Assembly: GCF_026625865.1 (NCBI RefSeq)
Contig: NZ_CP113067.1
Span: 868,001 to 932,000 of the forward strand
DNA: 64,000 nucleotides
Reading direction: 5' to 3'
DNA from: Microbacterium sp. SL75
GTDB taxonomy: Bacteria; Actinomycetota; Actinomycetes; Actinomycetales; Microbacteriaceae
Shown: positions 8,088 through 64,000 of the stretch, piece by piece
How the letters are laid out: every line of letters starts with the position of its first letter
Position numbering within the stretch: the first letter of the stretch is position 1
The notes under the pieces: generated by a model
The model's database searches: none
The model's input: only the letters and a program-made list of their open reading frames with translations
Told to the model about the DNA's origin: nothing
Translations under genes and position numbers: made by a program

Positions 8088-9283
8088 GGTGCGGCGACCC
8101 GAGCTGCCGCGACGGCGGCGGCGGTCTCGTGCACCCACGAGACGAAGTGGGCGGTCTGCTCGCCGAAACCGTGGACGTCGCTGCCCCACGGGTCCTTGAA
8201 GAAACAGCCGAGGGCGGTGACGACACCGGCATGACCGGCGCGGGTCGCGAGCGAGAGGGCGCGGACGAGGTCGATGACCAGGGGCGCCGCCAGAGCCGAG
8301 TCGTACGCGCTCCAGGTGGTCTGCAGCGTCACGCGGCTGCCGAGGAAACCTGTTGCGCTGACGTGGTCCCAAGCGGTCTTGACGTCGCCGAGGTCGGGCA
8401 CGTTGTCGATGTGCAGGGGGGTCACGACGTCGTCGCCGACGAGGGCGTGCAGACCGCGGTTCTTCGACACGAGCTTGGAGCGCACCGCCTCGGGGTCGGC
8501 CAGGGTCGCCCCGTCGCCTCCGCCGAGCAGGTTCGTGCCCGCCCAGGACTGCACGCGGAACCCGCGAGCCGTGAACATCGGGGCCAGCACGGTGCGCAGC
8601 AGCGTCTCTCCGGTCTTGCCGTCCTGACCCGCGTACGCGATGCCCGCCCGTTCGGCGCGGTCGCGCAGGACGGGAAGGTTGAGGGATGCCGAGGGAGTGA
8701 AGGCCGCGTACGCGGCTCCGGCGGCTATCGCGGCGAGGGCGGCGCGCGAGCTGGGCGGCAGCACCCGCACGCCCGGCGTCGTGAGGGCTGCCTGCAGCAG
8801 CTCGTCGTCTTCGAATCCCGGGTGGTAGGGCGGCAGGGGCTCGGTGGACGAGACGTCGATGACGACGACCTCGCGCAGGTCGTGCCGCTCGCGGAAGTCG
8901 ACGATGTCGGCTGCCAGCAAGTCGATCTCCTCCTGCTGGGTCGCTGTCATCGCGGGGACGGTGCGGAGGTTCCGATCGGTCTCGCGCAGGCGTTCGGCGA
9001 CCGCGTCGACGAGGGCCGCGGGGAACATGCCGCCCGCGGCGAGCTGGCGCGCCCGCTCCTCGAGCGGGGTGGTCGAGATGTCGTGGCCGCCGACGACGAT
9101 ATCGGCGAGCGCGGCGAACTCGTCGACGCGCACCGCGTCGGTCTCGGTCGTGAGCCCCACGGGGGTTGCGACCTCCGCGGCGAGGGCGTGGATGCCGAGG
9201 GTCGCCGTCGTGGCGAGCGAGCCTCGTGCGCCGATGAACCAGGCGCCGACGTCGGCGGTGTGTCGGGTGTCCGAAGTGTTCAC
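8084..9283 (-). CDS. Inositol-3-phosphate synthase family cyclase
   Basis: 399 residues from GTG at 9283 (VNTSDTRHTADVGAWFIG). The upstream in-frame stretch is Pro/Arg-rich spacer with no homology. The Rossmann motif is GAWFIGARGSLATT. The family signatures FTPSASLNLPVL and AGQDGKTGETLLRTVLAPMF follow, then SWAGTNLLGGGDG and the C-terminal cyclase region. These enzymes convert glucose-6-phosphate to inositol-3-phosphate with NAD. It is the first gene of the ebo operon. Because no EboD (dehydroquinate-synthase-like) gene is present, it may be the sugar-phosphate cyclase that feeds the pathway. A substrate other than glucose-6-phosphate is possible. Confidence 0.88.
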   Translation of the reverse strand: MNTSDTRHTADVGAWFIGARGSLATTATLGIHALAAEVATPVGLTTETDAVRVDEFAALADIVVGGHDISTTPLEERARQLAAGGMFPAALVDAVAERLRETDRNLRTVPAMTATQQEEIDLLAADIVDFRERHDLREVVVIDVSSTEPLPPYHPGFEDDELLQAALTTPGVRVLPPSSRAALAAIAAGAAYAAFTPSASLNLPVLRDRAERAGIAYAGQDGKTGETLLRTVLAPMFTARGFRVQSWAGTNLLGGGDGATLADPEAVRSKLVSKNRGLHALVGDDVVTPLHIDNVPDLGDVKTAWDHVSATGFLGSRVTLQTTWSAYDSALAAPLVIDLVRALSLATRAGHAGVVTALGCFFKDPWGSDVHGFGEQTAHFVSWVHETAAAVAAARVAAP

Positions 9284-9576
9284 GTGAGGGTCCGTTCTTC
9301 GTTGAGGGACGTCGATTGCCGGGCACGCGCGACGGCGCGACTCCGCGGGTGGGAGCTGTGGGGGTGGGGCGCTCCGGTGGGGGATGGAGGGCGGCCCGGG
9401 GGTGGTCGGGGGGACTCGTCGTCGAGGTGTCCTGGTCTGTTCGACAGTAGTGAGGCTTTTGCGGAAAGGCAACCAAAAGATGTTGCATTGAAGTGCAATA
9501 TTCGCCGCCGATTCGACGTCGGGAGCCGGGTGCATGTCGAGGAGGATTCTCGAGCGCCGCCTGCGACACTGCTCTC
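9284..9576. promoter_or_regulatory. Divergent intergenic region of the ebo operon with a TTGCA dyad
   Basis: This 293-bp spacer separates the ebo operon from the diiron protein and must hold both promoters. It contains a markedly AT-richer core at about 9450-9500, unlike the surrounding GC-rich DNA. A dyad TTGCATTGAAGTGCAA sits at 9483-9498 (half-sites TTGCA and TGCAA, 6-bp spacer), of the kind used by LacI or GntR regulators. No regulator gene is adjacent. The 16-bp dyad is seen; its function is inference. Confidence 0.5.
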
Positions 9577-10314
9577 ATGACCGCCCACCGAGACACGACA
9601 GCGTCCGACGTCGCGTTCGAGAAGTGGGTGACGCATTTCACCTCGAACCGTCGACGCCACGACGCGATCGAGGCGATGATCGACTGGGAGGCTCCCGCCC
9701 GCCTACCGACCGGAGTCCGGGCCATCCTCGTGCGGTCGTTTCAAAGATTCGAGCTGGGTGAGGGCGGCGACGGGCTCCATCTGCTCCGCAAGGCAGAGGG
9801 CTGCGGTACCGCTCAACGGGAGGCCCTGAGACTCCTGGTGGCGGAGGAGCAGAAACACTCGGCGCTGTTCCGACGCGGACTCCAGCACCTCGGAGCGGGC
9901 ACGTTGACCAATCATTGGTCCGACCTCATCTTCACGCGACTTCGGCGCGCGCTCGGGCTGCGCACCGAGCTGGCCCTGTTCCTGACGGCCGAAGCCGTCG
10001 CCATGCCCTACTTCGTCGTCCTTGCGCGTTCCGGGCCCGACCCCGTGATCCGCGGAATCGGCACGCGCATCGCGCTGGACGAAGAGCATCACCTCGCTTT
10101 TCAGATTGCTCAGCTCCGAGGAGGGCTCGCCGCCCTCACGACGCCCGTGCGGACGCTCGTCCTGCTCCTGTGGTGGGTGGTCGCCGTCGGAGCGGCGACC
10201 GTCGTGGCCCTCGACCACGGATCCGCTCTGCGCGCGTGCGGCCTCCCCGTGCGGCGCTATTGGGGAGCAGCGTTGCGCTCTTTCCGTCGGGCCGTCGAGG
10301 CGACGGTGTCCTGA
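9577..10314 (+). CDS. Ferritin-like diiron protein with C-terminal hydrophobic segment
   Basis: 245 residues. Two carboxylate/histidine iron motifs are visible, EEQKH at about residue 91 and DEEHH at about 169, spaced like AurF-type or ferritin-like diiron proteins. Extra carboxylates lie in the helices between (TAEAVA). A hydrophobic run (TLVLLLWWVVAVGAATVVAL) near the C-terminus could be a membrane anchor. Such proteins bind two irons and activate oxygen. No ribosome site is evident before the ATG, so a leaderless message or an upstream start is possible. It is divergent from the ebo operon and might act on its product, which is only a guess. The family assignment rests on motifs alone. Confidence 0.7.
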   Translation: MTAHRDTTASDVAFEKWVTHFTSNRRRHDAIEAMIDWEAPARLPTGVRAILVRSFQRFELGEGGDGLHLLRKAEGCGTAQREALRLLVAEEQKHSALFRRGLQHLGAGTLTNHWSDLIFTRLRRALGLRTELALFLTAEAVAMPYFVVLARSGPDPVIRGIGTRIALDEEHHLAFQIAQLRGGLAALTTPVRTLVLLLWWVVAVGAATVVALDHGSALRACGLPVRRYWGAALRSFRRAVEATVS

Positions 10315-49534: not shown

Positions 49535-50752
49535 TCAGGCCGACAGCACGTGCCGAACCTGCTCGACGGCCCAGTCCAGCTCGGTCGCGCGGATGGTCAG
49601 CGGCGGCGCGATGCGGATCGTCTGACCGTGCGTGTCCTTGACGAGCACGCCACGCGTCAGCAGCTTCTCGGCCACCTCGCGCCCGGTGCCGTACGCGGGG
49701 TCGATGTCGACGCCGGCCCACAGGCCCGCGATGCGAACGGTCGTGACGCCGTTTCCGACCAGCGATTGCAGCGACGCCTCGAGGTGCGCCCCCAGCGCCT
49801 TCGCGCGGGTCTGGAATTCTCCGGATGCCAGCATCTCGACGACCCGCAGGCCCACGGCCGCGGCCAGCGGGTTGCCGCCGAAGGTCGAGCCGTGCTCGCC
49901 GGCGCGGATGACGCCGAGCACGTCCTCGTTCGCGACCACGGCCGACAGGGGCAGGATGCCGCCGCCGAGCGCCTTGCCGAGCAGATAGACGTCGGGCACG
50001 ACGCCCTCGCGATCGCACGCGAACGTCTCGCCCACTCGTCCCAGACCCGACTGGATCTCATCGGCGATGAAGAGCACGTTGTTCTCGGTGCAGATCTCGC
50101 GGACCCGCTGCAGGAACCCCTCGGGCGGGAGCACCACACCGGCCTCGCCCTGGATGGGCTCGAGCATGACGGCCGCGGTGTTCTCGTCGATCGCGGCGGC
50201 GATGGCATCCGCGTCGCCGTAGGGCACGTGCACGAAGCCCGGCGCATAGGGACCGAAGTCGTCGTGCGCCGTGGGGTCGTCGCTGAAGCCGACGATCGTG
50301 GTGGTGCGGCCGTGGAAGTTGCCGTTCGCCACGATGATCGTCGCGGCATCCGGGGCAATGCCCTTGGTGCGGTAGCCCCAGGCGCGCGCGAGCTTGATCC
50401 CGGTCTCGACGGCCTCGGCGCCGGTGTTCATCGGCAGCACGAGATCTTTGCCGCAGAGCTGCGCGAGCGCGGCGGCGAAGGGACCGAGACGGTCGTTGTG
50501 GTACGCGCGACTGGTGAGAGTCAGGCGCTCGAGCTGCTCTCGGGCGGCGGCGAGGATCGCCGGGTGTCCGTGGCCGAAGTTGAGCGCCGAGTATGCCGAC
50601 AGCAGATCGAGGTACCGCTTGCCCTCGATGTCGGTGACCCAGACGCCCTCGGCGCGCGAGACCACGACGGGCAGCGGGTGGTAGTTGTGGGCGAGGTGCG
50701 CGCCCTCTTCGGCGATCAGACGAGCGCCGAGGTTGTCGACGGTGGTACTCAT
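49535..50752 (-). CDS. rocD: Ornithine aminotransferase
   Basis: 405 residues, ATG overlapping the dimethylargininase stop (ATGA). Class III aminotransferase motifs are clear: SAYSALNFGHGHP, MNTGAEAVETGIKLARAWGY (PLP phosphate), FIADEIQSGLGR, and LLGKALGGGILP with the Schiff-base Lys. It transfers the delta-amino group of ornithine to 2-oxoglutarate, giving glutamate semialdehyde. With ddaH upstream it belongs to arginine/ornithine breakdown. Confidence 0.93.
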   Translation of the reverse strand: MSTTVDNLGARLIAEEGAHLAHNYHPLPVVVSRAEGVWVTDIEGKRYLDLLSAYSALNFGHGHPAILAAAREQLERLTLTSRAYHNDRLGPFAAALAQLCGKDLVLPMNTGAEAVETGIKLARAWGYRTKGIAPDAATIIVANGNFHGRTTTIVGFSDDPTAHDDFGPYAPGFVHVPYGDADAIAAAIDENTAAVMLEPIQGEAGVVLPPEGFLQRVREICTENNVLFIADEIQSGLGRVGETFACDREGVVPDVYLLGKALGGGILPLSAVVANEDVLGVIRAGEHGSTFGGNPLAAAVGLRVVEMLASGEFQTRAKALGAHLEASLQSLVGNGVTTVRIAGLWAGVDIDPAYGTGREVAEKLLTRGVLVKDTHGQTIRIAPPLTIRATELDWAVEQVRHVLSA

Positions 50753-51633
50753 CGCGAACCGCCGCGCAGCTCCAGCGTGCAGCACTTGATGCCGCCGCCG
50801 CCGAGCAGCAGCTCGGAGAGATCGACCTTCACGGGGGTGTACCCGCGCTCGCGCAGCTGCGCCTCGAAGCCCACGGCGCGGGGAGAGATGATGACGTTCT
50901 TGCCGTCGCTGGCGGAGTTCAGCCCGAAGACCGCACCGTCACTGTCGGACACGCGGATGGCATCCGGGTAGCGCTCGCGCAGGATCGCCTGGCTCCGATC
51001 GTCGAACGCGTTGGGGAGGTAGGCGATGTTCGCCTTCTCGACGCCGCCGGGGCCCTCCACGGGATCGAGCACGGCGATCGCGGTGTCGAGGTGGTAGAAC
51101 CGAGGGTCGGTCAGCGTCAGCGACACGACCTCGCGCGAGAAGACCTCGCCCACCTCACGGTGGCTGTCGCCGGTGGAACGGAAACCCGTGCCGGCGAGGA
51201 TCGTGTCGCCCACGAGCAGGAAGTCGCCCTCGCCCTCGTTGACCTCGACCGGCTCGGCGACCTCGAAGCCGTTCGCGGCAAACCAGTCGATGAACGCGGG
51301 GGCCTCGGCCGCGCGCTCACGGAAGCGGAACTTGGGACCGTACGCGACCCCGTCGATCACGAAGCCGCCGTTGGCCGTGTAGACCATGTCGGGCAGTCCC
51401 TCGAGCGGGTCGATCAGCTCGATCTCGTGCCCGAGCTGCGTGTAGGTGTCGTAGAGCGACTGCCACTGCCGCACGGCGAGGTTCGTGTCGGTGGGGCGCG
51501 AGGGCTCCATCCACGGGTTGATGCTGTAGCTCACCGTGAAGTGCTCGGGGCGGCACATGAGGTACCGACGGTGCTGCTGCACGCGCTCGGCGGGCGTGAC
51601 CTCGGCGGGGGTGGCGACGGGGGTAGCGGACAT
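50749..51633 (-). CDS. ddaH: Dimethylarginine dimethylaminohydrolase family amidinotransferase
   Basis: 294 residues from ATG at 51633 with GAGGAGCAGAG upstream. The amidinotransferase fold is seen as CRPEHFTVSYSINPWM, DPLEGLPDMVYTANGG, EGEGDFLLVGD, FYHLDTAIAVLD (catalytic His) and GGGGIKCCTLELR (catalytic Cys). It removes dimethylamine from dimethylarginine to give citrulline, or acts as an arginine-type hydrolase. Coupled to rocD. Confidence 0.9.
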   Translation of the reverse strand: MSATPVATPAEVTPAERVQQHRRYLMCRPEHFTVSYSINPWMEPSRPTDTNLAVRQWQSLYDTYTQLGHEIELIDPLEGLPDMVYTANGGFVIDGVAYGPKFRFRERAAEAPAFIDWFAANGFEVAEPVEVNEGEGDFLLVGDTILAGTGFRSTGDSHREVGEVFSREVVSLTLTDPRFYHLDTAIAVLDPVEGPGGVEKANIAYLPNAFDDRSQAILRERYPDAIRVSDSDGAVFGLNSASDGKNVIISPRAVGFEAQLRERGYTPVKVDLSELLLGGGGIKCCTLELRGGSR

Positions 51634-51896
51634 CTCTGCTCCTCGGAGGAAAGGTGCGGCGGACGCTGTCCTGGGGCTCGGTGGCCCTTCGAACCCACGC
51701 GGCACCCATCAACTGCATGTGGCGCCGTGCGGGGAAAGGTCGGTCCGAGCACGCCGGTGTCATTGTCGCACGCGTGTGCGCGCGGAGGCGAGCGGCGCGA
51801 CGCGGCGGTCCGCCCTGCCGCCGGTGGTCCCGCGAGAAAGCCCGGGCCTCGCGCCTTGCGCGCGCGAAGAGGGTCGTCCCGCGAGACCCGCGTCCC
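51634..51896. other. Intergenic region before ddaH
   Basis: 263 bp between the GH51 gene and ddaH, both on the minus strand. It must hold the ddaH promoter, but I see no strong -10/-35 pair. The phrase GTCCCGCGAGA occurs twice (about 51827 and 51876). No reading frame in it has supporting evidence. Confidence 0.4.
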
Positions 51897-53578: not shown

Positions 53579-56500
53579 TCAGATGACCGACGCGCTCCAG
53601 GCATCGACGGCGCCGGAGCGGAACGCGCCGATCGACACCGCCTGCTCGCGCAGGAACGGCAGCAGCTCGAGGCGGCCGGCCGTCGTGACCTCGTCCGCGT
53701 ACACGGTGAGCGAGACATCGCCCGCGACCGTCTCGGCAACGGCCGCGCGCAGCGTCGCCACCGTCTCGGCGGGGCCCACGAGGCGCAGGCGCCCGGGGCG
53801 CGGGGCGACGACGAGGGTTTCGGCATCGCCGTCGGCGGCATCCGGGATGCCACCCGCCAGACGCTGCAACCACTCGGCGTCGCTCTCGACCGAGACCGCG
53901 ACCCCGCTGTCGCCCAGCAGGTGTCGGACGGCGGCGGGAAGACCCACCGGGGTACTGAGGCTGAAGGCCGAGCCCGAGCGCACCGCGGCCACCAGAACGC
54001 GCAGCACCGCCTCCCACGCGGCGTCGGCGGTGGCGCGCACGGCGACATCGACCGGACGGTAACGCCGGAGGTTGCGTTCGACGACCAGGCGCGACACGTC
54101 GCGGACGCGGCCGAACTCGCGATCCCACGCGACGGCGTCGGCGAGGGCGCCCCGACGGAGCCAGTCGAACGCCTCGTACGACAGGGTCGGTTGGGCCGCT
54201 TCGATCAGGGCCGTGATGCGCGAGTCGAGTCCGCGCAGGTGCAGGGTCGACGACGACGCCCCTCCTGACGACGGCCGCCACGATCCGAGGGTGACGAGAC
54301 GGTTCGGCCCGCCCGACATCGCCCCGTCGCCCACGGACGCCTCGCCCCACCCGCCGAGCGGCTCGCGCTGGATGACGGCCCCCGTCGAGGGACGGTTGAC
54401 CCGCAGCACGGCGGCCTCGACGGTGTCGAGCCAGAGCTCGAGATCGGCCTCGTCGCGGGTGTGGAGACCGGCGACGAAACCCGAGCCGATCGCGTTCTGC
54501 AGCTCGATCGCGCGTGTCACGGTGGGAGCGTGCAGGATGCCGAGCACCGGCGCCGCGACCGCGGCCCGGGTGAGGTGAGACCCGGCGGTGACGCCCGTAC
54601 GCACGCCCGGCGACCAGAAGCGGCCGGCCGTGTCGGGTCCGAGGTCGAGCTCTCGCGGTTCCACGAGCCAGCGTTCGCCGTCGCCGAGGACGGTCAGGGC
54701 GCGTCGCACCTCGCCCGCGGGTTCTTCGACGAGCGGACCGATGTCGGAGAGCGGGTCGTCGGCGGGACCCACACGCAACGACGAGACCGCGTCCTTGAGC
54801 TGCTCGGTGAACCACGGCGAGCGACCGACCGCCCCGACGAGGATGACGAGCGACACGGCCGTGGCGGCCTGGCCCGCTCGGGCGAAAGCCCCGGCGACGA
54901 TGTCGGCGACGGCGGCATCCACGTCGGCGGAGGGGGCGACGATCGCGACGTTGCGCCCGGCGGTGAGCGCCTGCACGGGCAGGGCCGGTCGCCAGGCGGC
55001 GAAGCGCTCGGCCGTCGTCCGGGCTCCCGCCAGCAGCACGCGGTCGACGCCGGGGTGGGCGATGAGCGCGCGGCCCGAGGCGTCCTCGTTGAGGTCGACA
55101 TAGGCGAGCAGGTCGCGCGGCACCCCCGCGGCCCAGAGAGCCTCGGCCACGACGGCTCCGCAGCGCCGTGCGCGCGGCGAGGGCGTGAGCAGCACCCCGG
55201 ATCCGGCGGCCAGCGCGGCGACGGCCTCGGCGGCGCAGAGCCCGACCGGGGCGTTCCAACGCGGGGCGACGACGCTCAGCCGATCGGGTACGAACACGGC
55301 CCCGGGCACGCGATCGAGCTCCTTCGCGGTGGCGGCGTAGTACGCGGCGGCGTCGACGGCCTGGCTCACCTCGGTGTCGGCCTCGGCGAGCAGAGCCCCG
55401 CCCTCGGAGGCGAGAACCTCGATCAGCTCGCCCCGGCGCTGCTCGAGGCTGCGTGCGACCGACTGCAGCACAGCGGCCCGGTCGGCGGCGGCGAGCGCAC
55501 CCCAGGGCTCTGCGGCGGTGCGCACGCGGTCGATGACCGCGTCGAGCCCCGCTTCGTCGTCGATGCGTCCCGCGGCGGCCGTGGCGTCTCCGGCGGTCGA
55601 ACCGGCGACCCGGCCGAGGGCGGCCATCGACCAGGCGCGGTCGGCGGGGAGCGTCGGGTCGGTGTCGGGCACATTGCGGAACCCGGGTGCGCCGCCCGCG
55701 AGTTCCGCGCTCTCGCGAGCCGAGAACACGGCGGTGTCGACGAAGGCCTGTCCGCCGAACAGCATCTGCTGCACGTCGGGGCCCAGAGCGGAGGTGTCGG
55801 CGGATGCCGCGGCCTCGCGCGCGATGCCCAGCACCGCCTGCGTGAGTCCGGGCTCGGCGGCGTCGTCGGCCGCGCGCTCGCGCAGGATCGCCGGATCGGC
55901 CTCGGTGTCGCGCTGCGGAGCGCGCACGGCGGGCGAGGGAAGGTCGGCTGCGGCCAGGGCGCGTCGAGCGCGGGCCGCGATGGATGCGGTCTCGGGGGCG
56001 TCCTCGGGCGTGCTCTCGTCGGGCTCATCCTCCGACGCGGGCACCGCCAGCGGCAGGTCGGGGGCACCGGCCACCGCGATCGCGTAGCGGGCGGCGAGGC
56101 GCGCGACGACGGCATCGACGTCGTCGGGGTACGCGGTCGGCGCCGTCCACAGGTGCCCCTCCCCCGGTGTCCACGGCGCGGTGTGCGGCACGGCGAGCGC
56201 GAGCTCGGCCCCGGCCTCCGTCGCGAGGGACAGGGCGAGGGCGGCACGTTCGGGGTCGGCGGTCGCAAGCTCCAGGGCGAAGCCCTCGATCCCCCTCGGG
56301 CTCAGGGCCTCGCGCAGGCCGCGCACGAGGGCGGCATCCACGTCGTCTCGAGCCGTGACCGCCGGGGCGAGCCACCCGTGGCGCGCCGCCGACACGGCAT
56401 CCGGGGTCTCGATGGGGGCATCGCTCAGACGCAGCGTCAGTCGGGCGCCGCCCTCGGAGGTGCGCACGCGCGCCCACGCCGACAGCTCCCGGACGGCCTC

Positions 56501-57277
56501 GGGGACCTCGGCGACCGCCGCCGGCAGCTGGACACCGGCCCGGAGCGAGGTGAGGCGCGGCTCCTCGAGCACGCGGGTGAGCACCGCGACGGTGAGATCG
56601 AGGTCGTCGCGTCCTTCGGCGACGAGGGTGACGTGGGTGCGCGCGGCGAGCGCATCGAGGAAGACCGGCAGCAGCCGCTCGGCCGCGTGCTCGACCTCGG
56701 CATCGAAGGCCCACGGCGACGGCGTGACCACGACATCGGAGATCGCGAGACAGACCCGCGGGACGTCCTCGCGCGAGAGAAGAGAACGGATGCCGTCGAC
56801 CCGGCGTCGCGCACCCGCGTCGCCCACGACGGCGGGACCGACGAGGCGCACCTCGACCGGTGAGCCGAGCGCATCGAGCGCGGGGCTGAGCCGCTCGGGG
56901 CGCGCGTCGAGCACGAGGGCGGCGAGGAGGTCGCGCAGCGCGCGGCGAGCGAGGGGTACGGCGGGACTCGGCAGGACGGGCGCGACGGCTCCGCCGAGCT
57001 GCAGGGCACCGCGGACGAACCACGGGAGAGACGCGGGGAGGTCGCCGGCGAGCCGGTGCAGCGCGGAGGCGGCCGAGGTCAGCGACTCCGGACGGGAGAC
57101 GCCGTCGACCGCTGCGGCCAGGAACGCCGCGGCGGCGGGGTCGGCGGGCAGTTCGCCACGACGCGGCACGGAGGCGGGGACCGTTCGTCGAGAGAACGTC
57201 GCGGCGACGCGAGCGGCGCGGGCCGGAAGGCCCGGAGAGAGCGCGGGAACGGGGGCGCCGGGGTCGTTCGTGCTCAT
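53579..57277 (-). CDS. PutA-like bifunctional proline dehydrogenase/aldehyde dehydrogenase, apparently inactive
   Basis: 1232 residues with the layout of PutA: N-terminal proline-dehydrogenase-like region, a linker, an ALDH domain from about residue 560, and a C-terminal ALDH-like extension. In the ALDH domain the catalytic Glu of the AETGG motif is replaced by Leu771 (ALTAGRN) and the catalytic Cys of GQRCSA by Ala805 (AGQAATA). The spacing between the two, 34 residues, equals that of E. coli PutA, so this alignment is safe. The cofactor Lys of AKP is Thr (LLTPSP), and the EVFGPVL Glu is lost (AAVAAPVL). The proline dehydrogenase part lacks the RLVKGA lysine (RLTLRLSDAPIE). The frame is intact, so it is a pseudoenzyme or a regulator. 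Confidence 0.8.
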   Translation of the reverse strand: MSTNDPGAPVPALSPGLPARAARVAATFSRRTVPASVPRRGELPADPAAAAFLAAAVDGVSRPESLTSAASALHRLAGDLPASLPWFVRGALQLGGAVAPVLPSPAVPLARRALRDLLAALVLDARPERLSPALDALGSPVEVRLVGPAVVGDAGARRRVDGIRSLLSREDVPRVCLAISDVVVTPSPWAFDAEVEHAAERLLPVFLDALAARTHVTLVAEGRDDLDLTVAVLTRVLEEPRLTSLRAGVQLPAAVAEVPEAVRELSAWARVRTSEGGARLTLRLSDAPIETPDAVSAARHGWLAPAVTARDDVDAALVRGLREALSPRGIEGFALELATADPERAALALSLATEAGAELALAVPHTAPWTPGEGHLWTAPTAYPDDVDAVVARLAARYAIAVAGAPDLPLAVPASEDEPDESTPEDAPETASIAARARRALAAADLPSPAVRAPQRDTEADPAILRERAADDAAEPGLTQAVLGIAREAAASADTSALGPDVQQMLFGGQAFVDTAVFSARESAELAGGAPGFRNVPDTDPTLPADRAWSMAALGRVAGSTAGDATAAAGRIDDEAGLDAVIDRVRTAAEPWGALAAADRAAVLQSVARSLEQRRGELIEVLASEGGALLAEADTEVSQAVDAAAYYAATAKELDRVPGAVFVPDRLSVVAPRWNAPVGLCAAEAVAALAAGSGVLLTPSPRARRCGAVVAEALWAAGVPRDLLAYVDLNEDASGRALIAHPGVDRVLLAGARTTAERFAAWRPALPVQALTAGRNVAIVAPSADVDAAVADIVAGAFARAGQAATAVSLVILVGAVGRSPWFTEQLKDAVSSLRVGPADDPLSDIGPLVEEPAGEVRRALTVLGDGERWLVEPRELDLGPDTAGRFWSPGVRTGVTAGSHLTRAAVAAPVLGILHAPTVTRAIELQNAIGSGFVAGLHTRDEADLELWLDTVEAAVLRVNRPSTGAVIQREPLGGWGEASVGDGAMSGGPNRLVTLGSWRPSSGGASSSTLHLRGLDSRITALIEAAQPTLSYEAFDWLRRGALADAVAWDREFGRVRDVSRLVVERNLRRYRPVDVAVRATADAAWEAVLRVLVAAVRSGSAFSLSTPVGLPAAVRHLLGDSGVAVSVESDAEWLQRLAGGIPDAADGDAETLVVAPRPGRLRLVGPAETVATLRAAVAETVAGDVSLTVYADEVTTAGRLELLPFLREQAVSIGAFRSGAVDAWSASVI

Positions 57278-57508
57278 GCCCGTCAGCCTAATTAGCGCGT
57301 GCGCGGCACCTCGGCGGCCCGCCGCGCAACCCGCGGATCGGCGGCCGGGTCGCAGCTCACGGGGGCCGAATCGCGTGTCCCCCGAATGGGCGACATATTT
57401 GCACTCTGATCAGAAATTCACAGGAATTCCTTCGCTTTTCGTCCGGGTCGTGTTTTCATGGCGGTGGGTACCCCGCCATTTATCCCCCTGGATGGAAGGT
57501 CACTCCAC
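57278..57508. promoter_or_regulatory. Divergent region before the secreted protease
   Basis: 231 bp between the PutA-like gene and the protease gene. The part 57390-57440 is strikingly AT-rich for this window (CATATTTGCACTCTGATCAG), with TTGCAC as a possible -35 and small palindromes CTGATCAG and GGAATTCC. It probably contains the protease promoter. The -10 is not clear. Confidence 0.4.
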
Positions 57509-58633
57509 GTGAACCGCATATCGAAAACCGTCGTGGGCGCCACCGCTCTCGGCCTGTTCCTGACCACCGCCGCCACCGCTCCCGCGCTGGCGCAGACCCC
57601 CACGTCATCGCCCGGCGCGGCCGTCGACGGAGTCGACGCCCAGCTGCTCGAAGCGATGGCGGCCGACCTCGGCACCGACGTGGCCGGAGCGCAGGACGTC
57701 CTGCGTTTCCAGGCCGACGCGGCCGGGACCGCCGACGAGGTCGCCGCCGTCTCAGGCGACGCCTTCGCCGGCACCTGGCTCGACGAGTCGACGCGCACCG
57801 TGTACGCCGCGGCGACCACGGATGCCGCTCGCGAAGCGGCCGCCGAGGCGGGCGCCGTCCCCGTCGCCGCGGAGCACTCCCTCGACGACCTCGAGGCGCT
57901 CGCCGCGAAGCTTGCGGCGAGCCCCGTTCCCGACGCGATCCCCTCGTGGTGGATCGACGTCGAGCAGAACGACCTCGTCGTCGACGTAGTGGCCGGCGGC
58001 GACCAGGCCGCGGCCGACTTCGTCGCGACGCTCGACGCCCCCGCGGGCGCCGTGCGCCTCGAGACCGGAGCCGAGGCCCCGGAGACCTTCGCGACGATCC
58101 AGGGCGGCATCGCCTACAACATCAACAACCAGAGCCGCTGCTCGGTGGGCTTCGCGGTGCAGGGCGGTTTCGTCACCGCCGGCCACTGCGGCGACGCGGG
58201 CGACAGCACCACCTACGGCACGTTCCAGGGCTCCTCGTTCCCCGGCAACGACTACGCCTGGGTCAGCACGCCCAACCACACCCCCGTCGGCTCGGTGTCG
58301 AACTACTCCGGCGGCTCCGTCGCCGTGAAGGGCTCGACCGCCGCCGCCGTCGGCGCGACCGTGTGCCGCTCGGGCTCGACCACCGGCTGGCACTGCGGCC
58401 AGATCCAGGCCTACAACTCCACGGTGCGCTACGCCGAGGGATCGGTCTCGGGCCTCATCCGCACCAACGTCTGCGCCGAGCCCGGCGACTCCGGCGGCTC
58501 ACTGCTCGCCGGCAACCAGGCCCAGGGCGTCACCTCGGGCGGCTCGGGCAACTGCTCGAGCGGCGGAACGACGTACTTCCAGCCCGTGAACGAGATCCTG
58601 CAGACCTACGGCCTGCGCCTGCTCACCAGCTGA
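57509..58633 (+). CDS. Secreted alpha-lytic-type serine protease (S1 family)
   Basis: 374 residues from GTG at 57509 (VNRISKTVVGATALG); GGAAGG lies upstream, and a longer ATG frame at 57458 is less likely. A signal peptide ends in PALAQT. A pro-domain (about 40-190) with alpha-lytic-protease pro-region character precedes the mature enzyme, which begins near IQGGIAYNIN. The triad is His in FVTAGHCGD, Asp in GNDYAWVS and Ser in EPGDSGGSL. Six cysteines suit three disulfides. It is a secreted endopeptidase that matures by self-cleavage. Confidence 0.92.
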   Translation: MNRISKTVVGATALGLFLTTAATAPALAQTPTSSPGAAVDGVDAQLLEAMAADLGTDVAGAQDVLRFQADAAGTADEVAAVSGDAFAGTWLDESTRTVYAAATTDAAREAAAEAGAVPVAAEHSLDDLEALAAKLAASPVPDAIPSWWIDVEQNDLVVDVVAGGDQAAADFVATLDAPAGAVRLETGAEAPETFATIQGGIAYNINNQSRCSVGFAVQGGFVTAGHCGDAGDSTTYGTFQGSSFPGNDYAWVSTPNHTPVGSVSNYSGGSVAVKGSTAAAVGATVCRSGSTTGWHCGQIQAYNSTVRYAEGSVSGLIRTNVCAEPGDSGGSLLAGNQAQGVTSGGSGNCSSGGTTYFQPVNEILQTYGLRLLTS

Positions 58634-58867: not shown

Positions 58868-61800
58868 TCAGCTGATCGCCCGGCGGCGGCGCTTCAGGGC
58901 CGCCCCGACCAGGACCGCGAGCAGTCCCAGGGCGAGGGCCGCGCCCGAGACCGCACCACCGGTCACCGCAAGCGGTGCCGTGCTCGAATCTGCAGCGTCG
59001 TCCCGAGCCGGGGGAACGACGGGGGTGGTGCCCGTGGCGGCAGCCGTGACCTCGATACCCACCGCGGCCTCGACGCCGCCGATGCGCGCGATCACCCGGT
59101 GGACGCCCGCGGGGCTGTCCGAGGGGAGCGTGACGTTCACGAGGAACGCCCCGGCGGCGTCGGTGCGGACCGTGCCCAGCTGGACCGGAGTGGAGCGCAG
59201 TTCGAGCTCACCGTCGGCGTTCGCCGGCCAGCCCGTGCCCGACACGGTGATGACCCCGCCGGCGGTGAGGTCGCCCGAGACCGACAGAGTCGGGTCTCCC
59301 GCGTTCGCGCCGACAGAGGTCGATCCGATCCCGCTGACGTTGCCGGCCACGTCCACCGCCCGGTACGACACGGTGGTCACGCCCGCACCGACGCTCGCGA
59401 CCGCCCGCTCCCCGGACGCGGTCGTCCAGGCCGCCGCGTCGCCGACGCGGTACTCGAGGCGCGCGACTCCCGACCCGCTGTCGCTCGCGAGGAGTGTCAC
59501 CGTGCGGGCCGCGGCATCCACCGTCGCCGTCGTCGCCGGGGCGGTGCGATCGATCCTCACCGCCGCCGTCACCGACTCCGAGACGTTGCCCGCGGCGTCC
59601 GTCGCGCGGAACGCGAGGTTCCACGTCCCCTCCGCCGGGGTCACCGCGCCGGTGTACGTCGCCCAGGTCGTCCCCCCGTCGGCGCTGAACTCGAGGCGCG
59701 GCGCCGGGTCGAGGTCGTCGGTCGCCGAAGCCGTGACCGTCGGCTGCGACACGTACCACCCGTCGGCTCCATCGGGCGAGATCGGATCGGCCGTCACGGC
59801 CACCGTGGGCGCCGTCTTGTCGGCCGGACGCGTGTGCATCCGCACGAACGTGACCGAGTACGGCTCGAACGAGTGCGTGAAGGAGTTCGAGACCGGCATC
59901 TGTGAGGCCTTCGGGGCCACGGGCGTCGACGTCGCCGTGTTCAGCGCCGTCGGAGCCGCCTGCAGGGTCGTCACGTCCGCGGTCGGGAGCACCGTGAGCC
60001 CTCCGAGATCGACCTTCGTCACCGCCGCCTTGGCCTGGGCGTTGACGACCTTCAGGATCACGTCTCCCGTTGACTCGTCCTTCGTCATGACCTGGGCGAA
60101 AGGCTCGACCGCCGTGTTGGAGAACTGCCCCTGCTGCACGCCGTCGGCGAAGAGCGTCACCTGGGCGCCGCGCACCTGGACGCGCAGGTCATAGGTCCGA
60201 CCGGTCTCGACGCGGGGGGTACCCGTGTCGGCGACGATCGATTTCGCACCGTCCACGGCCTTCTCCACGACGCTGCGGGTGTTCCCCCATCCGCCGAGGT
60301 TCCACCACAGGTAGTCGGCCGACCCCTTCACGCCGAAGCCCACGAGGAAGCCCTCGGCGCCGGCGAGCTTCGTGGCCTTGAGCGAGACGTCGTAGTCGGT
60401 GGCGGTCAGTGCGGGACCGGCGACCAGCGTGTTGTTCGCCGTCGTCGAGGACTGCACGTAGCTGCCGTCGGCGGCCGACCACGAACCCGCGCCCGCGAGC
60501 TTGGTCCATCCGTCGTCGTTCTTGTCGGCGAAGTCGTCGGAGAAGAGCGTCTTCCCGTCGGGCGTCGTGACCTTCACGTCGTCGTAGCGGGCGGAGGTGC
60601 TCCACGTCGACAGCCCTACGGCACCGGAGACAGCGGTGGATGCCAGGTCTCCGCCCGCCGTGGTCGGAACGACCCGGTCGCCGACGTTGCGCATGAAGAG
60701 CTTCTGCACCTCGTAGTTCGCCGAGCCCCACACCTGGTCGCGGTCGAACCAGATGAGGTCGGGGCTCCACTGCACGTTGCTGGTGTCGGCCAGCAGCGGC
60801 GCGTACGACGCCATCTTGACCACGTCGGCGTTGCGCTCGAGGCCCGTCATGTACGCGGCCTCGGAGAGAGCGTTCGCGAACCGGTTGTCACGCGAGGCGT
60901 ACTCACCGATCCACACCTTGGGTCCGCCCCGGTCGTACGAGTCGTACCGCTGGTTGTGCGAGAGGAACCACGAGGGGTCGCGGTAGTAGTGCTCGTCGAC
61001 CATGTCGACCTTCTCGGCCCTGTTCTGCTCCCAGTGCTTCTCGAAACTCGCGCCCTCGGCGTCGGGGCCCGAGTTGCTGATCAGGATCATGTCGGGGTAC
61101 TTCGACGTGATGGCATCCCGGAACTGCACGAAGTTCGCCATGAACGCCTCGGGGTAGTTCTCCTCGTTGCCGATCTCGATGCGGTCGAGCGCGAAGGGGG
61201 CGGGGTGGCCCATGTCAGCGCGGAGCTTGCCCCACGTCGTCGTCACGTCGCCCTTGGCGAACTCGATGAGGTCGAGGGTGTCCTGGATGTGGCGCTGGAG
61301 CAGGGCCGGGTCGGTCGGCTGGAGGGCCTGACCGCAGCCGTTCATCAGGGCCGGCACATCGGGGACGGGCTTGGCGCCGATGTCTTCCGCGAACTGGAAG
61401 TACTCGTAGTACCCCAAGCCCAGCGACTGGTTGTAGCCCCAGAAGTTGGCGTTGGTGGCTCGGGTCTCGACCGGGCCGACGCTGTCCTTCCACTGGTACG
61501 ACCGGGCGCGCTCCCAGTTCGAGTCGGCCGAGTAGTCCTCGTGGCTGTTGACGTTGACGATGCAGCCGCCGGGGAAGCGCACGAACTTGGGGTGGAGGTC
61601 GGCGATCTTCTGCGCGATGTCCTTGCGCAGGCCGTTCTCGCGGCCCTTGAAGGTGTCGCGCGGGAACACCGAGACCTCGTCGAGCCGGAGCGTTCCCGCC
61701 CCTGCCGCCTGCACGAGCACGCGCGCGGCGTCGGTCGTGGCCGTCGCCGTCACGGAGCCGCGGTACTTCACCCAGCCGTCTCCGCCCACGGTCGCGGTGA

Positions 61801-64000
61801 AGGGGTTCGACAGCACCGAGCCGTCGGCGGAGCGCAGCGCGAGCGAGACGGGGGTACCGCTGGTCGCGGTGGTGCGCGCCCAGAACGACACGTCGTAGAC
61901 GCCGTCCTTCGTGAGGGCCACCCCGGTGTCGAAGCCCGCGTTCTCCACGCCGTACGTCCCCGCGCCGCTGTTCAGGTCGAGCTGCAGGTAGGTGCGGTTG
62001 CGCTCGTTCATGCGCTCGTCGTCGTCGACCGGCTTCGCCGATCCCGCACCGCCGCCCAGGGCCACGGGCGTCCACGCGGTCATCCCGGTGAAGCCCCGGT
62101 TGTCGACGGGCAGGAACTCGAACGAGCGGTTGCGCACGAGCTCGGCGTACAGGCCGCCGTCTGCGGCATTGTTGATGTCTTCGAAGAAGACGCCGTACAT
62201 CGCGTCATCGATCTCGGCGCCGTTCTGGCTCGGGTCAGCCGTGATCGAGTAGTCCGCGGTCTCGTCCGTCGGGTACGCCGCGAGCAGCCGCTGCTGCTCC
62301 GCTGCGCTGATCGGCAGGACGGTTCCGTGACGCGGACGCGCCGGGAGGGTGGCATCCAGAACCGACGTCCAGTTCCCGGAACCGATGTCTCGGGTCTCGA
62401 ACATCATGTAGCCCTGACCGCCGTGGTAGCTTGGTTGGTCGATGAGCATGTACCAGTGACCGGCCTCGGCGTTGTCGGCGAACACCGTGGGTCCCTCGCC
62501 GTTGGTGAACGTCCCGCCCCAGGGGTTGGGCTGACCGACGCCGATCTGCTCCTTCACGAGCTGCCAGCCGGGGCTGGAGGTCGGGGTGGGAAGGGAGCCG
62601 GATACGGTCGCGGTGAGCGAGGTCGAGCGCTCCTGGCGCACGGTCATCGACGCTTCGTCTTTGATGAAGCGGTAGTACGTGTCGCCGTCGCGCACGACGG
62701 TGGCGTCGATCGTGCCCTTACCCGCGCCGCGCTGGACGTCGACCCATGGCTGCGGCTCGCTGAAGGTGACGAAGTCGCGCGTGGTGACCATCATCATGCG
62801 GTTGTAGGTGTCCGATGCCTTCCGGCCCGCGGTGGACGCGCTCGGGTACAGGTTCGATGCCCAGTAGACGACGTACTCACCGCGGTCGGCGTCCCACGTG
62901 GCTTCGGGGGCCCAGGTGTTGCCGGCCAGCTCGCTCGACACGGTGATCTGCCGGAGCGGGCTCCAGGTCGCGAGGTCGTCGGACTGCCAGACATTGAGCG
63001 TGCGGCTGCCGACCTCCTGTGCGCGGCCGAAGTCGCCGTTGTAGAGGTCGTACATGTTCAGGTCGGTCGACAGCATGTAGAAGCGGTCACCGTCGGGCGA
63101 ACGCATCACGAAGGGGTCGCGGATGCCCTTCTCGCCCTGGTCCGAGGTGAGCACGGGCTGCCCGTCGTTCAGGGTCAGCCAGCTCTTCGGGTCGTTCCCG
63201 CGGCTCGTGGCGAACGAGATCTCCTCGTCCGTTGTCGTGCTCTCACCGGTGAAGAACGGGAAGAAGTAGCCCTCGAGCTTCTGCTGCGCGGGCTTCGGCT
63301 GGACGACCAGGTCGAAGGTGCGCGTGGTCTCGCTCGACCCCTTCGCGACCGTCGCGGTGAGCGTCACGGTCACGGCCGCCGACCCGGTGGCCGGTCGCGC
63401 GACCTCGCCGGTCGGGGTCACGACCTGCGCGTTCGACGACGACCACGCCACCGATGTGCCGTTCGACCCGACCGTGGGCAGCGTCACGTTGCCGCGCACG
63501 TCGTCGGCATCCGGGATCGAGAGGGCCTTCGCGGCGGTGTCGACGTCCTGGGCGTTCGTCGGGGTGCCCTGCGCGACGAGCGCCTTGACGTCGTCGTCGC
63601 TGAGCGCGCTGTCGAAGATCGCGACATCGCGCACGCCGCCCTTCCACGAGCGATCGGGATAGGACGAACGACCGATGTAGCCCACGAGACCGGAGCCGAA
63701 GTCGGCGATCGAACGCGAGGTGGCGACCGTGCCGATCTTCGTCTCGCCCAGGTAGGAGGTGATCGAGGTGGGCGTGATCACCGTGGTGTAAAGCGCCCAT
63801 TCGGACGTCGAGGAAGGACCCGGGATGCCGCGGGTGCCGTCAGTCGGAGCGATCCCGCGCTCGAGGGTCCAGGGCTGGGCGATCCGCGGCCCGTCGGTGA
63901 GGACCGACTTGACCTGACCGGCCGGATTGGCGGGGTTGAGCAGCCAGTACTGCTGGGGGAGGTTCTCTGTGGTGCCGAAGAACATCGCGGCCTGGTTGCC
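58868..64000 (-). CDS. Giant sortase-anchored GH43-GH51 arabinan-degrading protein, N-terminus outside window
   Basis: At least 1710 residues; the frame is open to the right edge, so the signal peptide is missing. Order of domains (residues approximate, counted from 63985): LamG-like 1-150; atrophied Ig-like 150-235; GH43 five-blade propeller 240-570 (IRDPFVMRSPDGDRFYMLS, APEATWDADRGEYVVYW); carbohydrate-binding domain 600-770; GH51 catalytic barrel 780-1110 with acid/base in DRIEIGNEENYPEAF and nucleophile in KVWIGEYASRD; a LamG/CBM66-like domain 1160-1330; Ig-like modules 1400-1610. It ends in LAVTGG (58958-58972 encode LAVTG), a membrane segment and KRRRR, a class E sortase signal. It likely removes arabinose from plant polysaccharide at the cell wall. 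Confidence 0.9.
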   Translation of the reverse strand, partial: GNQAAMFFGTTENLPQQYWLLNPANPAGQVKSVLTDGPRIAQPWTLERGIAPTDGTRGIPGPSSTSEWALYTTVITPTSITSYLGETKIGTVATSRSIADFGSGLVGYIGRSSYPDRSWKGGVRDVAIFDSALSDDDVKALVAQGTPTNAQDVDTAAKALSIPDADDVRGNVTLPTVGSNGTSVAWSSSNAQVVTPTGEVARPATGSAAVTVTLTATVAKGSSETTRTFDLVVQPKPAQQKLEGYFFPFFTGESTTTDEEISFATSRGNDPKSWLTLNDGQPVLTSDQGEKGIRDPFVMRSPDGDRFYMLSTDLNMYDLYNGDFGRAQEVGSRTLNVWQSDDLATWSPLRQITVSSELAGNTWAPEATWDADRGEYVVYWASNLYPSASTAGRKASDTYNRMMMVTTRDFVTFSEPQPWVDVQRGAGKGTIDATVVRDGDTYYRFIKDEASMTVRQERSTSLTATVSGSLPTPTSSPGWQLVKEQIGVGQPNPWGGTFTNGEGPTVFADNAEAGHWYMLIDQPSYHGGQGYMMFETRDIGSGNWTSVLDATLPARPRHGTVLPISAAEQQRLLAAYPTDETADYSITADPSQNGAEIDDAMYGVFFEDINNAADGGLYAELVRNRSFEFLPVDNRGFTGMTAWTPVALGGGAGSAKPVDDDERMNERNRTYLQLDLNSGAGTYGVENAGFDTGVALTKDGVYDVSFWARTTATSGTPVSLALRSADGSVLSNPFTATVGGDGWVKYRGSVTATATTDAARVLVQAAGAGTLRLDEVSVFPRDTFKGRENGLRKDIAQKIADLHPKFVRFPGGCIVNVNSHEDYSADSNWERARSYQWKDSVGPVETRATNANFWGYNQSLGLGYYEYFQFAEDIGAKPVPDVPALMNGCGQALQPTDPALLQRHIQDTLDLIEFAKGDVTTTWGKLRADMGHPAPFALDRIEIGNEENYPEAFMANFVQFRDAITSKYPDMILISNSGPDAEGASFEKHWEQNRAEKVDMVDEHYYRDPSWFLSHNQRYDSYDRGGPKVWIGEYASRDNRFANALSEAAYMTGLERNADVVKMASYAPLLADTSNVQWSPDLIWFDRDQVWGSANYEVQKLFMRNVGDRVVPTTAGGDLASTAVSGAVGLSTWSTSARYDDVKVTTPDGKTLFSDDFADKNDDGWTKLAGAGSWSAADGSYVQSSTTANNTLVAGPALTATDYDVSLKATKLAGAEGFLVGFGVKGSADYLWWNLGGWGNTRSVVEKAVDGAKSIVADTGTPRVETGRTYDLRVQVRGAQVTLFADGVQQGQFSNTAVEPFAQVMTKDESTGDVILKVVNAQAKAAVTKVDLGGLTVLPTADVTTLQAAPTALNTATSTPVAPKASQMPVSNSFTHSFEPYSVTFVRMHTRPADKTAPTVAVTADPISPDGADGWYVSQPTVTASATDDLDPAPRLEFSADGGTTWATYTGAVTPAEGTWNLAFRATDAAGNVSESVTAAVRIDRTAPATTATVDAAARTVTLLASDSGSGVARLEYRVGDAAAWTTASGERAVASVGAGVTTVSYRAVDVAGNVSGIGSTSVGANAGDPTLSVSGDLTAGGVITVSGTGWPANADGELELRSTPVQLGTVRTDAAGAFLVNVTLPSDSPAGVHRVIARIGGVEAAVGIEVTAAATGTTPVVPPARDDAADSSTAPLAVTGGAVSGAALALGLLAVLVGAALKRRRRAIS

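Follow-up and report, generated by a model that had tools for sequence, protein, structure and literature searches.

The window analysed here, a stretch of 64,000 nucleotides from Microbacterium sp. SL75 (contig NZ_CP113067.1, positions 868,001 to 932,000), carries on its reverse strand an open reading frame for a PutA (proline utilization A) protein of 1232 amino acids (aa). The source genome, which belongs to the Microbacterium testaceum group, consists of one contig of 3.44 Mb. By descent and fold the encoded protein belongs to the PutA family, by its catalytic residues it does not; it is a conserved pseudo-PutA, and several such proteins have arisen in the family. In the following, PutA1 denotes this protein and its orthologues, and PutA2 the second, complete PutA of the same genome. 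The features of the gene are the following:

53579..57277, reverse strand: pseudo-PutA (dead PutA1), 1232 aa
56078..57100, reverse strand: proline dehydrogenase (PRODH) region, residues 60-400, motifs lost, relaxed selection (ratio of nonsynonymous to synonymous substitution rates, dN/dS, 0.36)
55817..55846, reverse strand: linker motif LTQAVLGIAR, residues 478-487 (pattern counts, dN/dS of the block)
55721..55762, reverse strand: linker motif LFGGQAFVDTAVFS, residues 506-519, low model confidence (pattern counts)
54323..55687, reverse strand: aldehyde dehydrogenase (ALDH) region, i.e., 1-pyrroline-5-carboxylate (P5C) dehydrogenase (P5CDH), residues 531-985, catalytic residues lost (dN/dS about 0.17)
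55226..55237, reverse strand: C681-A-A-E684, Cys and Glu fixed (>=95%) in the main dead clade
55184..55186, reverse strand: Lys position of the nicotinamide adenine dinucleotide (NAD) site, now Thr698 (62/62 dead-clade proteins)
54965..54967, reverse strand: general-base Glu position, now Leu771 (Leu 34, Phe 21, Val 4, Ile 3; n=62)
54863..54865, reverse strand: nucleophile Cys position, now Ala805 (Ala 56, Pro 5, Ser 1; n=62)
54560..54562, reverse strand: Glu position of EFFGP, now Ala906 (Ala 58, Ser 3, gap 1; n=62)
53948..54322, reverse strand: C-terminal domain part 1, residues 986-1110, with LHLRGLD, the tightest segment (dN/dS 0.124)
53582..53947, reverse strand: C-terminal domain part 2, residues 1111-1232 (dN/dS 0.317)

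The domain order of PutA (PRODH, linker, P5CDH, C-terminal domain) is present. In Pfam, Aldedh reaches 214 bits (cut-off 23) and Pro_dh 23.2 bits, which is under its cut-off of 27 (27.3 bits with the frame neighbours); at E-values up to 1 these were the only matches, and the ribbon-helix-helix (RHH) DNA-binding domain that marks the trifunctional type C PutA was not among them. An AlphaFold2 model of residues 34-1232, based on a 56-row alignment, has a predicted local distance difference test score (pLDDT) of 86.4 and a predicted template modelling score of 0.87, with pLDDT below 50 in the linker (including LTQAVLGIAR) and in short stretches. Its best match in the PDB is the PutA structure 5ux5, and the model suggests that the PutA fold is retained.

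Concerning the ALDH half, the original prediction had placed Leu771 and Ala805 at the positions of the catalytic Glu and Cys, 34 residues apart. The alignment with the intact PutA2 (frame G000:C1:559478-563341), the active copy with which a comparison had been proposed, bears this out: both residues fall into the columns of the Glu (AETSGKN) and the Cys (GQKCSA), and the spacing of 34 is the same in PutA2. The predicted losses of the cofactor Lys and of the EFFGP Glu are likewise found, as Thr698 (KPAP to TPSP) and Ala906 (EFFGP to AVAAP). For the PRODH half, the loss of a Lys had been noted, which understated the change, as all five checked motifs (DMEEYRD, VKGANL, AGHN, EMLLG, and the arginine pair of RRLEEN) are replaced; DMEEY, VKGAN, GHN and RRLEE are presumably motifs of the proline site and the flavin adenine dinucleotide site. 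Asn675, which we take to be the oxyanion-hole residue, is retained in 60 of the 62 dead-clade proteins. An alternative Cys/Glu pair in the active site was ruled out at the level of the alignment, as none of the only cysteines of the protein (176, 681 and 706) is situated in the nucleophile column. Judging from these residues, the protein would lack the chemistry of both active sites, and it exhibits what characterizes an ALDH-fold pseudoenzyme, i.e., the fold without catalytic Cys and Glu and under purifying selection. The window protein and PutA2, the motifs of which are intact, share 47% identity in the stretch that comprises ALDH and the C-terminal part, and 34% in PRODH.

Distribution and recurrence of the loss

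A scan of GTDB representative genomes yielded 31 loci, 29 of which (L003-L031; 66-99% identity) belong to the same dead clade and stem from Microbacterium, a Microbacteriaceae bin, and an Actinomycetota bin; the remaining two are an intact, more distant PutA of Amnibacterium (L032) and a C-terminal fragment (L033). Cys and Glu are lost in all 28 dead-clade loci that reach these sites (L031 stops short of them), such that 28 of the 29 scan loci reaching the active sites share the losses, L032 being the exception. From a protein database of 5.8 billion entries, the best 120 of 151 and the best 120 of 208 hits gave 220 different proteins, the window protein included, 152 with both residues and 68 without Cys or Glu or both; among the latter, all 62 proteins of the dead clade have lost both. 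One dead-clade protein (P0061, 826 aa, M. testaceum) starts in the linker and is without the PRODH half, by deletion or by its annotated start.

Within the genus, 149 Microbacterium genomes were sampled, with only the four best candidates per genome scored. PutA1 was found in 135 of them, with intact ALDH residues in 112, one change in 2 (G219, G339), and a dead copy in 21. The intact ones, mostly 48-59% identical to the window protein, include a frame-broken copy with intact ALDH residues (G287, genome 68% complete) and three partial copies counted on the residues shown (G228, G304, G320). Outside the genus, 199 genomes were searched (three of them of the genus), and the residues were read in 48 family loci chosen by score.

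Each of the 21 genomes with a dead PutA1 in the genus sample (19 of the main clade, G257, and G314) also has PutA2, as do 4 of 4 such genomes of other genera; the PutA2 motifs are intact in the 25/25 genomes read (G240 in the ALDH part only). Among the PutA1 genomes, defects of PutA1 affect 23 of the 73 with PutA2 and 0 of the 62 without it (Fisher test, p = 1.6e-7 when kinship is ignored; p = 0.044 for four events versus none), presence of PutA2 being called at E <= 1e-225 and G106, with two shorter PutA2-like pieces, being counted as without. Three incomplete genomes had neither PutA1 nor PutA2 at the thresholds used.

PutA proteins without Cys or Glu are also found outside the main clade: in Microbacterium in the M. 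nymphoidis/gorillae clade (P0121-P0124, L147; the G257 protein is listed as M. nymphoidis, P0121-P0124), in L146 (the G314 copy), in P0069, and in P0108, and in other genera in L067 (G017) and L197 (G160) of g18, L199 (G035, g36), and L196 (G073, g74). The extent of the damage differs. In L067 the changes are confined to the ALDH half (Arg for Cys, Gln for Glu), the PRODH motifs being intact; P0108 has lost Cys and kept Glu, L197 has kept Glu, and L199 has lost Glu and kept Cys and Lys. In the tree, L199 falls on the side of PutA2, and it may not be a PutA1. Two further copies, both in genomes with PutA2, carry a single change with the other checked motifs intact: Cys to Tyr in L301 (G339) and Lys to Ser at the NAD site in L141 (G219), the latter change being seen also in 2 of the 152 intact database proteins. 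These copies are possibly first steps of the same loss.

In a tree of the C-terminal domain, P0069 groups with the intact L088 (support 97/97), L067 and L197 with the intact L214 (98/92), and L199 with the intact L032 (97/90). A further group in this tree, with support 95/75, consists of the main clade, the nymphoidis clade, L146, and P0108, which could share one origin. In the full PutA1 tree, long branches unite the main clade with L146 and L147, and the tool issued a warning. On rpoB, the seven main-clade genomes used form one clade (100/100), and an approximately unbiased test rejects the main clade, G257, and G314 as one clade (p = 0.007). A single origin of all dead PutA is opposed by this test as well as by the grouping of P0069, L067/L197, and L199 with intact proteins. 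As a firm minimum, Cys or Glu was lost in at least four lineages (the 95/75 group that contains the main clade; P0069; g18; L199) and in four genera; counting the rpoB test, L196, or G339 brings the independent losses to at least five. The catalytic residues of a large bifunctional enzyme have thus been lost repeatedly in one bacterial family, beside a working copy in the genomes read, with apparent intermediates in which one residue is lost, one domain is hit, or both are hit.

Selection on the dead gene

Pairwise dN/dS (Nei-Gojobori method, NG86) among 16 dead genes (120 pairs, median dS 0.5-0.75) has a median of 0.358 in PRODH, 0.166 in ALDH, 0.155 in the linker block (residues 470-525), 0.124 in residues 986-1110, and 0.317 in residues 1111-1232; in 120/120 pairs the values of ALDH and of residues 986-1110 are below that of PRODH. 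In intact PutA1 of 14 other genomes, a wider set in which the linker aligns less well, the respective values are 0.183, 0.202, 0.435, 0.210, and 0.339. PutA2 from 14 genomes of the same clade as the dead genes shows 0.068 in PRODH and 0.124 in ALDH.

The proportion of sites conserved to >=95% in dead versus intact proteins is 61 versus 59% in ALDH (282 of 460 sites among the 62 dead and 271 among the 152 intact proteins), 75 versus 54% in residues 986-1110, and 28 versus 65% in PRODH. Equally, three pairs of intact PutA1 exhibit 82-88% identity in PRODH and 70-84% in residues 986-1110, whereas the window protein and the intact L089 share 43% and 78%, respectively. At 40 ALDH sites the dead clade has switched to another fixed residue, at eight of them to arginine; many are situated near the motifs of the NAD and aldehyde sites, and they include Pro to C681 and Gly to E684, close after Asn675. 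The latter two are absent from L146, L147, P0069, and P0108.

The window gene is not simply decaying, and its shell is under purifying selection. Apparently, constraint has shifted away from the PRODH barrel and towards the linker and the beginning of the C-terminal domain. The earlier claim that selection keeps the gene is backed by dN/dS, whereas the argument from 1232 open codons, on which it had been built, is weak in G+C-rich DNA. The idea that an antisense gene keeps the frame open was rejected: no antisense frame is conserved among the 16 dead genes, the best one being free of stops in 5 and interrupted by 1-4 stops in the other 11 (4 in the window genome), with 2-13 and 15-28 stops in the other two frames. 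Eight PutA2 genes contain 1-6 stops in their best antisense frame.

None of the catalytic motifs lies in the most constrained parts, i.e., the linker block and the first segment of the C-terminal domain. These parts possess elements of their own, counted here in main-clade dead, nymphoidis, other dead, intact PutA1, PutA1-like proteins of other genera, and PutA2 (all 15 from this genus), in this order:

LTxxVLGIxR (first linker motif): 60/62, 4/4, 1/3, 122/152, 23/27 (24 with a slightly longer search window), 0/15
[FY]x[ED]TAV[FY] (core of the second linker motif): 61/62, 4/4, 3/3, 137/152, 3/27, 0/15
FGG extension of the second linker motif: 61/62, 4/4, 3/3, 26/152, 0/27, 0/15
LHLRGL (C-terminal domain): 61/62, 4/4, 3/3, 149/152, 27/27, 0/15

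By these counts, the FGG extension is a mark of the dead lineages that some intact ones share; altogether it is found, with kinship uncontrolled, in 68 of 69 dead Microbacterium proteins (including P0108, P0069, L146, and P0121-P0124) versus 26 of 152 intact ones.

Neighbourhood and upstream region

Around the dead gene, the following features were located:

57285..57290, reverse strand: -10-like TAGGCT, ending 7 bases before the ATG (leaderless type)
57313..57323, reverse strand: palindrome GGCGGGCCGCC, upstream, possible operator
50749..51705, reverse strand: ddaH, dimethylargininase (NCBIfam)
49535..50785, reverse strand: rocD, ornithine aminotransferase (NCBIfam TIGR01885)

The presence of ddaH and rocD, named in the original prediction, is confirmed by NCBIfam scores above the cut-offs (425 bits, cut-off 300, and 474 bits, cut-off 378, respectively). 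Both genes likewise lie within the 20-kb regions of 5 of 11 PutA1 genes from other Microbacterium genomes (L131-L141), and the dead gene is therefore probably at an inherited place. They also adjoin the intact Amnibacterium PutA, which is weaker evidence for an inherited location because L032 groups with PutA2 on long branches. In the dead clade, ddaH is present in the fetched flanks of 7 of 29 loci, some flanks being short.

The -10-like TAGGCT is kept in all 17 aligned dead-clade upstream regions, with the ATG 7 bases on; the loose pattern TANNNT occurs 4-9 bases before the start in 24 of 31 intact PutA1 genes, several start codons having been tried per gene. The palindrome GGCGGGCCGCC is exact in 15 of the 17 regions and differs by one change in L009 and L029; it likewise precedes the intact L091 gene. 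Divergent from the dead gene lies a gene for an alpha-lytic-type serine protease with a prodomain (57458-58633, forward strand), found beside the dead gene in 19 of 29 dead-clade loci, followed by a multidomain arabinofuranosidase of 1705 aa (58868-63985, reverse strand). At the PutA2 locus (L034), a LysR-like regulator, named by eye from its sequence, is encoded divergently from PutA2 (9031-9918, forward strand).

Possible roles of the dead protein

In our preferred reading, which we hold to be probable, the Microbacterium PutA1 is a double pseudoenzyme that was freed of its chemistry by PutA2 and retained for a role other than catalysis, one that PutA1 possessed before. PutA2 would have taken over proline catabolism, PutA1 would have lost proline dehydrogenase and P5C dehydrogenase chemistry while its locus was presumably inherited, and the linker motifs together with the C-terminal domain may form a docking surface, such that the protein would act as a scaffold or regulator. 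Redundancy with PutA2 gives a reason why catalysis could be lost; the tighter conservation of the linker block and the C-terminal segment after this loss is left unexplained by it. The simplest account of the conservation pattern would be that a docking or regulatory role carried by these elements predates the loss. As the same elements are kept in genomes and genera with intact PutA1, the partner is probably not PutA2 itself. A broader proposal, which we put forward only tentatively, is that PutA1 of Microbacteriaceae in general has a second, non-enzymatic function in the linker (LTxxVLGIxR family-wide, [FY]x[ED]TAV[FY] in Microbacterium) and in the first part of the C-terminal domain, and that a second PutA repeatedly frees it to become a pure carrier of this function. 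If this is true, the dead copies are natural separation-of-function mutants.

Several observations weigh against the preferred reading. PutA1 was not found in 11 of the 149 genomes, all of them with PutA2, and G205 contains a frame-broken copy, so that the function of PutA1 is dispensable in some lineages. Some cases are less completely dead than the window protein, since L199, L197, and P0108 keep some of the residues. The first linker motif is unmatched in P0027, in P0061 (which begins near it), in P0108 (by its last residue only), and in L146. The limits of the dN/dS comparison given above (pairwise estimates at considerable dS, a wider intact set, and a less well aligned linker) count here as well.

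The missing genes, the broken copy, the one-change copies (G339, G219), and the relaxed PRODH half would all suit a fading relic without function, open merely since stops are rare in G+C-rich DNA. We consider this improbable for the window gene, given dN/dS of 0.12-0.17 across about 630 codons, the fixed switched residues, and the conserved -10 element; it may well be true of rarer, fast-evolving copies such as L146 and L196. Contacts of the PutA oligomer lie in the ALDH shell and the C-terminal domain, both of which are kept, and the dead PutA1 could by analogy join the active PutA2 in a mixed oligomer and tune or stabilise it. The joint occurrence in 25/25 genomes agrees with such an oligomer, and prozyme, a dead paralogue of trypanosome AdoMetDC beside an active one, is a precedent (PMC5201418). 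We nevertheless regard it as unlikely, though less so than plain decay: the most conserved elements are common to intact PutA1, the linker motifs and LHLRGL are absent from the PutA2 examined, and redundancy accounts for the co-occurrence equally well. The prozyme enzyme is also an unrelated one, and what is seen for dead PutA1 and PutA2 is co-occurrence.

The original prediction had proposed that the protein could sense or channel glutamate semialdehyde, i.e., the semialdehyde/P5C made by the nearby RocD. The proximity of ddaH and rocD, recurring near other PutA1 genes and beside L032, and the kept Asn675 are in its favour. However, the Glu column has become hydrophobic, Cys, the NAD Lys, and the proline-site motifs are lost, PRODH is the most relaxed large region, the tightest parts are without catalytic motifs, and the neighbourhood, with ddaH near few dead-clade loci, is perhaps merely inherited. 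The proposal is not supported by these data, and we rate it as quite improbable. The least probable explanation, to which we give very little weight, is a new enzyme activity on the ALDH shell, e.g., around the newly fixed Cys681 and Glu684. The 40 switched sites and the position of these two near Asn675 speak for it; against it, both are missing from the other dead lineages named above, and by the geometry of the ALDH fold the position of Cys681 is not the nucleophile site.

Among known systems, the window protein is most readily compared to type B PutA with a C-terminal domain, e.g., that of Corynebacterium freiburgense (PDB 5ux5), from which it differs by the loss of the catalytic residues of both domains and by the shift of constraint from PRODH to the linker and the C-terminal domain. 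The C-terminal domain of type B PutA has been connected with channelling, with ALDH activity, and with lipid binding that depends on proline (PMC5293562). PutA2 of the same genome is homologous and has the same Glu-Cys spacing, but its motifs are intact and it is without the linker motifs and the LHLRGL segment. Human ALDH16A1 is likewise an evolutionarily kept ALDH fold without the catalytic triad; it belongs to another ALDH family without a PRODH half (PMC10650815), whereas the window protein is hit in both domains and the losses are recurrent. The DNA-binding regulatory PutA of Ralstonia solanacearum (PMC9132996) shares the idea of a second, non-enzymatic PutA role; it is an active enzyme, whereas Pfam shows no DNA-binding domain in the window protein. 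Among the matches listed in the open-access literature, there is no report of a catalytically dead PutA, and the sole paper among them with both "proline utilization A" and "pseudoenzyme" (PMC9065289) concerns NQO2. Pseudoenzymes are usually met singly, whereas the recurrent losses described here allow one to test directly what a PutA does apart from catalysis, and they indicate which of its parts are used for this. The finding also affects the database names of the relatives, which are "proline dehydrogenase" or "RHH-type" PutA.

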